A DNA stretch of 64,000 nucleotides from Paracoccaceae bacterium (lineage in GTDB: Bacteria; Pseudomonadota; Alphaproteobacteria; Rhodobacterales; Rhodobacteraceae). The stretch spans positions 1 through 64,000 of the forward strand of contig JABURR010000015.1 in the NCBI GenBank assembly GCA_014762635.1, given 5' to 3'. Each line of letters opens with the position of its first letter. Within the stretch, counting starts at the first letter, position 1. Shown piece after piece: positions 23,827-26,498 of this stretch. The translations under genes and the position numbers were made by a program. Under the pieces are notes generated by a model that was given only the letters and a program-made list of their open reading frames with translations, made no database searches and was not told the DNA's origin.

Positions 23827-23899
23827 TCAAGTTGAAGGGGTATGTTAACTTTTTCGGGCGTCGCTTCAAGTTGACCCGCCCCGGGGGCGGGCCTATTCT
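23827..23899 (+). promoter_or_regulatory. Promoter and direct repeats upstream of the ribonucleotide reductase gene
   Basis: TTGACC (23871-23876) and TATTCT (23894-23899) with a 17-base spacer fit a sigma-70 promoter ending 34 bases before the start codon. A 9-base direct repeat TCAAGTTGA occurs at 23827-23835 and again at 23866-23874, where it overlaps the -35 element. The repeat could be a regulator site. The region is too short for a cobalamin riboswitch. Confidence 0.5.
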
Positions 23900-23933: not shown

Positions 23934-26498
23934 ATGACCCGTTTTTCCGCGCCCATCGCCGAGCAGATCTGGGACATGAAATACCGGCTGAAAGAGGCCG
24001 ATGGCACACCGATCGACGGAACGGTGGAGGATACCTGGCGCCGCATCGCCCGGTCCTTGGCCAAGGTCGAGAAGGATCCGGCCGCCTGGGAAGAGAAATT
24101 CTACGCCGCGCTGGAGGATTTCAAATACCTGCCCGCGGGCCGGATCACCGCGGGTGCGGGCACCGGGCGTGACGTGACGCTGTTCAACTGTTTCGTCATG
24201 GGCACGATCCCCGACAGCATGGGCGGCATTTTCGACATGCTGAAGGAGGCCGCGCTGACCATGCAGCAGGGCGGTGGCATCGGCTATGACTTCTCGACGA
24301 TCCGGCCCAAGGGCGCGGATGTGAAGGGCGTGGCCGCCGATGCCTCGGGACCTCTGTCGTTCATGGATGTCTGGGACGCCATGTGCCGCACGATCATGTC
24401 GGCGGGCTCGCGCCGGGGCGCGATGATGGCGACGATGCGCTGCGATCACCCGGATATCGAGGATTTCATCTCCGCGAAATCCGACCCGGCGCGGCTGCGG
24501 AATTTCAACGTCTCGGTGCTGGTGACCGATGCCTTCATGGAGGCGGTGAAGGCTGGAAAAAGCTGGGATCTGGTCTTCGACGGCAAGGTCTATCGCACGG
24601 TCGATGCGCAGGATCTTTGGAACCGGATCATGCGCGCGACCTATGATTTCGCCGAGCCCGGCGTGATCTTCATCGACCGGATCAACGCGATGAACAACCT
24701 CGCCTATTGCGAGACAATCGCCGCCACCAACCCCTGCGGCGAGCAGCCCTTGCCGCCCTATGGCGCCTGCCTCTTGGGCTCGATCAACATGGCGCGGCTG
24801 GTGACCAATCCGTTCGAAAAGAACGCAGAGCTGGATCAAAAGGCGCTGGATGAACTGGTGCGGCTTGCGGTGCGGATGATGGACAACGTGGTCGATGCCT
24901 CGCGCTTCCCGCTGCCGCAGCAGGCGGAAGAGGCGAAGAACAAGCGCCGCATCGGATTGGGCGTGACGGGGCTGGCGGATGCGCTGCTGATGCTGGGGCT
25001 GCGCTATGGCTCGGACGAGGCCGCGAAACAGACCGAGGCCTGGATGAAACAGATCGCGCGGGCGTCGTACCTGGCGTCCGTGGACCTGGCCAAGGAAAAG
25101 GGCGCCTTCCCGCTGTTCAATGCCAAGAAGTACCTTGCCTCGGGCAACATGAAGCAGATGGACAAGGACGTGCGCGAGGCGGTGAAAAAGCACGGTATCC
25201 GCAACGCGCTGGTCACCTCGATCGCGCCCACCGGCACAATCAGCCTTTACGCGGGGAACGTCAGTTCCGGGATCGAACCGGTCTTCGCCTATGCCTATAC
25301 CCGCAAAGTGCTGCAGAAGGACGGATCGCGCACCGAGGAAGAGGTCGTCGATTATGCGGTCGAGATGTGGCGCAAGAAATTCGGGGATCGAGACCTGCCG
25401 GACTTTTTCGTCAACGCCCAGACTCTGCAGCCGTCTGAACATGTGAAGATGCAAGCCGCGGCGCAGCGCTGGATCGACAGCTCAATCTCCAAGACGATCA
25501 ACTGCCCCGAGGATATTTCCTTCGAGGCGTTCAAGGACATCTACATGCAGGCCTATGAAACAGGCTGCAAAGGCTGCACGACCTATCGGCCCAACGCCGT
25601 GACCGGCAGCGTGCTGAGCGTGGAGCCGAAGGCCGAAAAGACGGAAGAGGCGAAGTCAGCCGAGTCGGTGGCCGCCCCCGACCCCGAAACGATCGCAGGC
25701 CGGATCGAGGCCGCCGCGCCGCGCATGGGAATCGACGATATCGAAACACTGGCCGAGCGCGCCGGGGTGGAGCCTGACGTGATCGCTTCCTGGGGCTTTG
25801 GCGAGGTGCCGTCGAACCGCGAGGCGCGCGCCGTGGCCGATGCATTGGAAGTCACGCCGCGCTGGCTGCTCTTTGCCGAGGGCGTTGGTCCCTCGGCGCC
25901 ACCTGCCCCGCAACCGCCCGAAGTTGTCGCGCAAAGCCCGGCGGAACCGCAGACCCCGCATGGCGACGTGGTTTATATCTCGGAGCCGCTGGACCGCCCG
26001 GCGGAACTGGAAGGCAACACTTACAAGCTGAAATGGCCCGACAGCGAGCATGCGATCTACATCACCGTGAACGATATTGTCGTGGCCGGACGGCGGCGCC
26101 CGTTCGAGGTGTTCATCAACTCCAAGAACATGGAGCATTTCGCCTGGACCGTGGCGCTGACACGGATGATCTCGGCGGTGTTCCGGCGCGGCGGCGACGT
26201 GTCCTTCGTGGTCGAGGAACTGAAGGCGGTGTTCGACCCGCGCGGCGGCGCCTGGATGAAGGGGAAATACGTGCCCTCGATCCTGGCCGCGATCGGCGGA
26301 GTGATCGAGCAGCACCTGATCTCGATCGGCTTCATCGCCGGAGAAGGGCTGGGCCTGAAATCCGACCCGCAGGCCGAGATCGCCGATGGCAGCGCGCCCC
26401 GTCGCGGCAAGGCCTGTTCCAGCTGCGGCAGCTACGAGATGCGCATGGTCGAGGGCTGCATGACCTGCGCGAGTTGCGGTTTCTCCAAATGTGGATAA
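23934..26498 (+). CDS. nrdJ: Adenosylcobalamin-dependent (class II) ribonucleotide reductase
   Basis: Reduces ribonucleotides to deoxyribonucleotides with B12-generated radicals, needing no oxygen. 854 residues. The catalytic barrel occupies about residues 1-565, with active-site cysteines in TLFNCFVMG and NPCGEQPLPPYGACLLGS (N-x-C-x-E), and the partner strand around KGCTTYRPN. A TSCPD domain (about 665-810) and a cysteine-rich tail (CSSCGSYEM, then CMTCASCGFSKCG) follow. Unusually, residues 586-650 look like an XRE/Cro-type helix-turn-helix: IETLAERAGVEPDVIASWG, then ARAVADALEVTPRWLLFAEG. This sits between two linkers rich in Ala, Glu and Pro. No small subunit gene is near. Confidence 0.95.
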   Translation: MTRFSAPIAEQIWDMKYRLKEADGTPIDGTVEDTWRRIARSLAKVEKDPAAWEEKFYAALEDFKYLPAGRITAGAGTGRDVTLFNCFVMGTIPDSMGGIFDMLKEAALTMQQGGGIGYDFSTIRPKGADVKGVAADASGPLSFMDVWDAMCRTIMSAGSRRGAMMATMRCDHPDIEDFISAKSDPARLRNFNVSVLVTDAFMEAVKAGKSWDLVFDGKVYRTVDAQDLWNRIMRATYDFAEPGVIFIDRINAMNNLAYCETIAATNPCGEQPLPPYGACLLGSINMARLVTNPFEKNAELDQKALDELVRLAVRMMDNVVDASRFPLPQQAEEAKNKRRIGLGVTGLADALLMLGLRYGSDEAAKQTEAWMKQIARASYLASVDLAKEKGAFPLFNAKKYLASGNMKQMDKDVREAVKKHGIRNALVTSIAPTGTISLYAGNVSSGIEPVFAYAYTRKVLQKDGSRTEEEVVDYAVEMWRKKFGDRDLPDFFVNAQTLQPSEHVKMQAAAQRWIDSSISKTINCPEDISFEAFKDIYMQAYETGCKGCTTYRPNAVTGSVLSVEPKAEKTEEAKSAESVAAPDPETIAGRIEAAAPRMGIDDIETLAERAGVEPDVIASWGFGEVPSNREARAVADALEVTPRWLLFAEGVGPSAPPAPQPPEVVAQSPAEPQTPHGDVVYISEPLDRPAELEGNTYKLKWPDSEHAIYITVNDIVVAGRRRPFEVFINSKNMEHFAWTVALTRMISAVFRRGGDVSFVVEELKAVFDPRGGAWMKGKYVPSILAAIGGVIEQHLISIGFIAGEGLGLKSDPQAEIADGSAPRRGKACSSCGSYEMRMVEGCMTCASCGFSKCG

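Follow-up and report, generated by a model that had tools for sequence, protein, structure and literature searches.

A catalytic barrel, a TSCPD domain and a cysteine-rich tail are common to the class II ribonucleotide reductase (RNR) NrdJ, as represented by the TIGR02504 family and the Thermotoga maritima structure 1xje, and to the protein considered here. In most class II RNRs turnover is mediated by the cysteine-rich C-terminal domain (PMC5704485, Loderer et al.). The other alphaproteobacterial and viral NrdJs that we read have a disordered linker without a helix-turn-helix (HTH), unlike the present enzyme, whose linker holds a segment resembling the XRE-type HTH of bacteriophage repressors. 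With the XRE family (HTH_3; 434 Cro, P22 c2, SinR) this segment shares the five-helix fold, the size, the core pattern and the ‘WLLFG’-type ending, but it is embedded in the linker of an enzyme and comes without the repressor C-terminal domain.

Three described systems offer points of comparison. The CI-type repressors of temperate phages carry HTHs of the same type; the HTHs found in NrdJ are as diverse as those of heteroimmune phages, and two of their free-standing relatives are prophage-borne, although the NrdJ inserts lack dimerisation and cleavage domains and the HTH is carried on an RNR. An XRE-like fold is fused to an enzyme in HppE, HEPD/PhpD and MPnS, just as in NrdJ. In those enzymes the domain is a fixed component, and we know of no DNA role for it in HppE, HEPD or MPnS; in NrdJ, by contrast, the domain is interchangeable. 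Finally, in exchangeable specificity modules such as the HsdS target recognition domains and phage immunity regions, a conserved scaffold has its specificity domain swapped between relatives. The likeness of NrdJ to these is one of behaviour only, the NrdJ scaffold being a metabolic enzyme.

The XRE-like segment of the NrdJ linker

The window (the whole 64,000-nucleotide stretch of DNA that was analysed) encodes an adenosylcobalamin-dependent reductase whose domains are listed in the table below. Its sequence assigns it firmly to NrdJ_Z, by a score of 605 bits against the TIGR02504 equivalog model (cut-off 400) together with the barrel and TSCPD domains, and the nearest solved structure is that of the T. 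maritima enzyme (1xje, E 2e-83). The NPCGE motif is conserved, and C268, C828, C831, C842, C845 and C848 are invariant or nearly so (alignment A2). Given the role of the tail in turnover (PMC5704485), the HTH-bearing linker therefore lies between the active-site barrel and the re-reduction domains. A long NrdJ (PRK07562) is also encoded in 118 of 120 family genomes, the genome of the window being among those with both enzymes, and the NrdJ with the insert is thus an accessory RNR.

Features of the window in and upstream of nrdJ (positions in the window)
Feature	Residues	Position	Strand	Basis
nrdJ, adenosylcobalamin-dependent (class II) ribonucleoside-diphosphate reductase, 854 aa		23934..26498	+	ORF; TIGR02504; 1xje
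RNR all-alpha N-terminal domain	7-79	23952..24170	+	PF00317, E 4.8e-13
RNR catalytic barrel	85-551	24186..25586	+	PF02867, E 2e-132
Inter-domain linker (variable slot)	562-678	25617..25967	+	alignments of 129 NrdJs
XRE/lambda-repressor-like HTH (predicted)	586-650	25689..25883	+	AlphaFold2; PDB fold matches; PHROGs repressor matches
Helix 3 (recognition-type), PDVIASWGF	614-622	25773..25799	+	model; sibling comparison
TSCPD domain	697-795	26022..26318	+	PF12637, E 2.9e-11
C-terminal cysteine-rich tail, CSSCG..CMTCASCGFSKCG	828-854	26415..26495	+	sequence; alignment A2
Near-palindrome TCAAGTTGA, two copies upstream of nrdJ		23827..23840; 23866..23878		

Translation of the HTH-coding positions gives exactly the segment that the original prediction had likened to an XRE/Cro repressor. 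An AlphaFold2 model of the linker, built on 55 homologous linkers (that of the window and 54 others), has five helices, at residues 587-598, 603-610, 614-622, 628-638 and 642-647, with pLDDT of about 90-98 against about 52-73 in the flanking linkers. Five such helices in a model built on homologous linkers argue that the HTH call is not due to chance. When the model was compared with the PDB by Foldseek, 434 Cro and the P22 c2 repressor ranked first, with a target-normalised TM-score of about 0.8 and a probability of 1.0; the E-values were modest (1.5e-3 and above), as is common for domains of 65 residues. A full-length model (33 sequences; mean pLDDT 61, which is poor) again has the five helices, standing apart at pLDDT 74-91 between neighbours below 50. 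The PHROGs repressor family phrog_2328 matches residues 575-658 (E 8.5e-8), and Pfam HTH_3 matches at 18.6 bits (E 0.0019), short of the curated cut-off of 23 bits. We thus assign the segment to the XRE fold on the strength of its structure and its siblings, without counting it as a curated member of Pfam HTH_3. As modelled, it is a genuine five-helix XRE (lambda-repressor-like) domain forming a separate module in a disordered linker, so that the fold proposed originally is borne out, structure prediction having returned the five helices rather than some other architecture; so too is its placement, flanked by disordered linkers, after the barrel and ahead of the TSCPD/cysteine tail.

Two other identities for the segment were considered and set aside. 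It is not a phage CI repressor, since a Pfam search found no C-terminal dimerisation/S24 domain in the protein, nor an intein of the kind found in RNRs, there being no Hint match and the insert being a 65-residue HTH. The variation between inserts described below consists of whole unrelated domains, not of adenine-directed changes of single residues as in a diversity-generating retroelement. Within the window genome, the search for other XRE–enzyme fusions gave HTH_3 matches in regulator-size frames, NrdJ being the only one of 854 residues.

An exchange slot in the Rhodobacteraceae enzymes

We collected NrdJs from 80 loci of a contig collection and 60 from whole family genomes, which gave 129 distinct proteins. 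The linker is mostly 17-30 residues long in 74 of the 129 and 85-131 residues long in the other 55, a share that is not a prevalence, the sample having been drawn by similarity to an insert-bearing query. Of 353 family genomes that have this gene, at least 43 (about 12%; whole-genome search together with L127 and L205) carry an insert, and because most appear to be without one, the insert seems dispensable. The inserts resemble one another in kind: 51 of the 55 match HTH_3 (E up to 0.01, best 1.1e-16), 48 match phrog_8 and 47 match phrog_4, and a profile of all 55 matches the SinR, 434 and P22 repressors in the PDB.

In sequence the inserts do not follow the enzyme that carries them, and almost every insert-bearing species has an XRE domain of its own at this position. 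Median HTH identity is 0.21 where the backbones are 90-95% identical and 0.26 where they are 75-90% identical; a Mantel test finds no correlation between the similarity of the HTHs and that of the backbones (rho 0.047, p 0.23; with the window type excluded, p 0.27), and in only 2 of 55 cases does the closest protein by backbone also have the closest HTH. L009 and L095, for example, have backbones that are 93% identical and HTHs that are unrelated, and L002 has an HTH while its neighbours L030 and L047 have none. With the 129 proteins placed on a tree of their backbones (736 columns, LG+G4, quick search), no fewer than 29 changes between presence and absence of the insert are needed, and starred branches force 15 of these. 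L094, with an HTH, and L039 of Ruegeria pomeroyi, without one, have flanking DNA that is 94.5% and 93.7% identical on the two sides, level right up to the linker; such level identity in close pairs rules against allelic transfer of long nrdJ stretches, and exchange therefore seems to be confined to the linker region. A conserved flank of the PHGD type stands at the end of 45 of the 55 inserts as against 14 of the 74 insert-free linkers (Fisher p 5e-13), and its occurrence in the latter means that some insert-free alleles may be losses. The linker is a slot for recurrent insertion and exchange: unrelated XRE domains of the phage-repressor kind repeatedly enter it, are stacked there, give way to others and disappear, while conservation of the enzyme remains at about 90%. 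The earlier picture of a single fusion is thus half right: there is an XRE domain in NrdJ, but it is one occupant of a hypervariable slot.

These patterns bear on two of the functions first suggested. That the fold has been re-used for oligomerisation or allostery of the enzyme would be in keeping with the presence of HppE/HEPD/MPnS-type enzymes among the profile and fold matches, and with the lack of a typical recognition helix in the window copy; it predicts, however, that the domain is conserved in sequence along with the enzyme, and the opposite is seen. A fixed oligomerisation role fits poorly with the swapping of unrelated HTHs among neighbours whose enzymes are about 90% identical, and we regard a structural explanation of the slot as improbable, while a structural role for the window type alone, which is vertically inherited (see below), is possible. 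Autoregulation, in which the HTH would let NrdJ bind and repress its own promoter, can draw on the class of the domain and on nothing else; L094, with an HTH, and L039, without one, have almost identical nrdJ promoters, so that no operator came with the domain, and every swap would require a new operator. We consider it highly improbable.

The region upstream of nrdJ has features of its own. The DnaA-box word TTATCCACA occurs within 200 bases upstream of the gene at 49 of 126 loci, with and without an insert, in a survey that included L094, L039 and L003; the exact word is absent upstream of the window nrdJ. Such words in the upstream sequence suggest cell-cycle control of the accessory RNR. 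The near-palindrome TCAAGTTGA, present in two copies in the window, was found in 3 of the 54 genes with an insert and in none of the 72 without one, possibly by chance.

As far as seen, the slot is a feature of the Rhodobacteraceae. No HTH was found in the linkers of the 37 readable NrdJs (40 loci fetched) from other alphaproteobacterial families, nor in the readable linkers among 54 viral NrdJ loci, several of which were incomplete or unreadable by the motif used; the viral result argues against a phage origin of the whole insert-bearing nrdJ. Linkers and enzymes of other kinds were also encountered. NrdJ of L159, a viral contig, has a long, charged, helical-looking linker insert that is not XRE-like, and the linker of L015 has a (GE)n run of about 20 residues after its HTH, a low-complexity expansion. 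Probable inteins were noted in NrdJ of other Alphaproteobacteria (G489, G432, G435, G509, G577, G578, G459 and G410) and of phages (L193, L194 and L196), on the grounds that matches break at the NPCGE motif or that frames are 1063-1217 residues long.

Age, composition and flanks of the inserts

The window’s own HTH type was found in 6 of 385 family genomes, always within NrdJ and never free-standing at E 1e-8, in a search with a consensus-like sequence composed from its members. Its synonymous divergence resembles that of the backbone and its dN/dS is about 0.2-0.3, which together indicate that the type has been inherited vertically under purifying selection. In other pairs of the same type the HTH dS is mostly far above the backbone dS, a comparison that is saturated and hence qualitative only. 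The recognition helix of the window copy, EPDVIASW, has E, P and D at exposed positions and is without the usual contact residues, and the domain has 6 basic and 12 acidic residues among its 65, unlike most sibling inserts, whose recognition helices are mostly polar or basic at the exposed positions. With so atypical an acidic helix in a net acidic domain, DNA binding by the window copy is doubtful, and the tethering near DNA once suggested for it is poorly supported. This copy is an old, settled occupant of the slot that may have lost canonical DNA binding.

Most of the other occupants look different. Across the 55 genes, GC3 averages 0.60 in the HTH codons and 0.83 in the rest of the gene, and in 50 of the 55 the HTH lies below every enzyme window of the same length, the window copy (0.78 against 0.84) being among the exceptions. 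By codon composition, most of the HTHs look recent and foreign. At L205 (genome G118, minus strand, 1261-1662) two tandem HTHs of different type stand in one uninterrupted frame: the 5′ one is L008/L011-like with a GC3 of 0.62 and the 3′ one is of the window type with a GC3 of 0.94, close to the 0.91 of the barrel. It looks, on these values, as if a newer domain was added 5′ of an older one.

The insert-bearing genes also have a strand-asymmetric bias at fourfold sites on either side of the insert. Around the left junction, over about a dozen codons, these sites are C-poor and G-rich, with a skew of +0.57 (about 0 in insert-free non-PHGD genes), and after the insert they are G-poor and C-rich, with a skew of −0.38 (−0.10 in the rest of the gene). 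Were a break to fall within the insert, the strand left as a 3′ overhang would on either side be the C-poor one. The bias extends for some 30-50 bases per side, sets these genes apart from insert-free ones (p 2e-7 and 2e-5) and rises with the GC3 deficit of the HTH, that is, it fades with compositional age (rho 0.53, p 3e-5; 55 genes), p values which are optimistic, the genes being related by descent. Pairing of the two flanks as a stem was discounted, own pairs being no better than swapped ones (p 0.27), and no clear match was found to a known error-prone-polymerase signature, the mutation spectrum reported for Caulobacter ImuC/DinB (PMC7198004).

A bias that is stronger where the HTH composition is newer points to a DNA-level event, as would be expected if the linker were a neutral insertion hot spot into which some DNA-level process inserts mobile-element repressor fragments, small folded domains without function that are tolerated in the flexible linker of a redundant enzyme. 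That the host enzyme is accessory in most genomes and its linker unconserved fits such a process as well. Against it, each of the 55 inserts is a complete domain of the one fold, joined in frame, whereas random insertion should yield other domains and broken frames (though these may be purged), and the window type has been kept over long divergence at the low dN/dS given above. We therefore regard neutrality as somewhat unlikely.

Probable origin and possible role of the inserted domains

Free-standing relatives of the inserts are rare within the family and distant, 41-50% identical at best. In G088, a relative of the L094/L008 type has an integrase gene on one side and genes for terminase, portal and HNH proteins on the other, and one of the L016 type in G286 adjoins an excisionase-like gene and an integrase; the two regulators themselves gave no PHROG match at 1e-5. 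Searches of phages, plasmids and viral contigs with several HTH queries found no near-identical donor, the matches being repressors from unrelated hosts, distant in sequence and mostly with 31-55% identity. Over its 12-residue recognition segment the G088 regulator has an identity of 0.92 to L008 and of 0.75 to L094; over the rest of the domain the values are 0.27 and 0.39, respectively; an excess of this kind was not seen for L098, L011 or L019. This comparison, over 12 residues and in part of one type, favours retention of DNA specificity in part of the inserts. It is left unexplained, as is the frequent replacement of the HTH, by the idea that any HTH suffices as a generic tether that keeps the reductase near DNA and raises the local dNTP supply. 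Conservation of the fold alone among the inserts, and not of sequence, is what a tether would lead one to expect, but the window copy is acidic, and we find the idea quite improbable.

The explanation that we favour, tentatively and at a little less than an even chance, is that the linker works as an exchange slot for HTHs captured from the repressors of mobile elements and probably employed in DNA recognition, with turnover by way of selection on specificity. Its parts have falling support in the order of repressor origin, retained DNA recognition and selection on DNA specificity. The inserted domains would derive from repressors of prophages and similar elements. Most would keep DNA recognition and, as RNRs of this class work as dimers, the enzyme would present two HTHs in the manner of a CI dimer. 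Turnover would be driven by selection on DNA specificity; most likely, an abundant chromosomal protein sitting on the operators of circulating temperate elements would protect the cell or damp the elements. Roseobacters are exposed to temperate phage-plasmids in which losing repressor function releases lysis (PMC10090143), and protection by a chromosomal repressor-like protein is plausible for that reason. A further-reaching proposal, which we think unlikely, is that the nrdJ linker is an active capture site, where break-associated in-frame insertion would leave the strand-asymmetric footprints and the resulting chimeras would serve as a rapidly renewed, chromosomal repressor-type immunity.

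It is unusual for a single domain of a metabolic enzyme to turn over far faster than the remainder, and to be replaced by the same fold each time seen. We found no description of an HTH in NrdJ in the open-access literature (most subscription journals lay outside this coverage), and we know of no exchangeable repressor-type domain described in a metabolic enzyme; the parts are of known kinds, and it is their combination that is, to our knowledge, new. The chimeras occur in cultured species, including Pseudooceanicola batsensis, Roseovarius nubinhibens and Antarcticimicrobium sediminis, and the flank footprint could reveal the mechanism of in-frame domain capture. Were it neutral, the slot would still keep a natural record of the repressors passing through roseobacters. 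Its turnover suggests that nucleotide metabolism and mobile DNA are connected in a fast-evolving way that has gone unrecognised, and if the HTHs bind the operators of circulating phages and plasmids, they would constitute an undescribed form of repressor immunity borne on a housekeeping-type protein, in which dNTP supply would be tied to the control of mobile elements.
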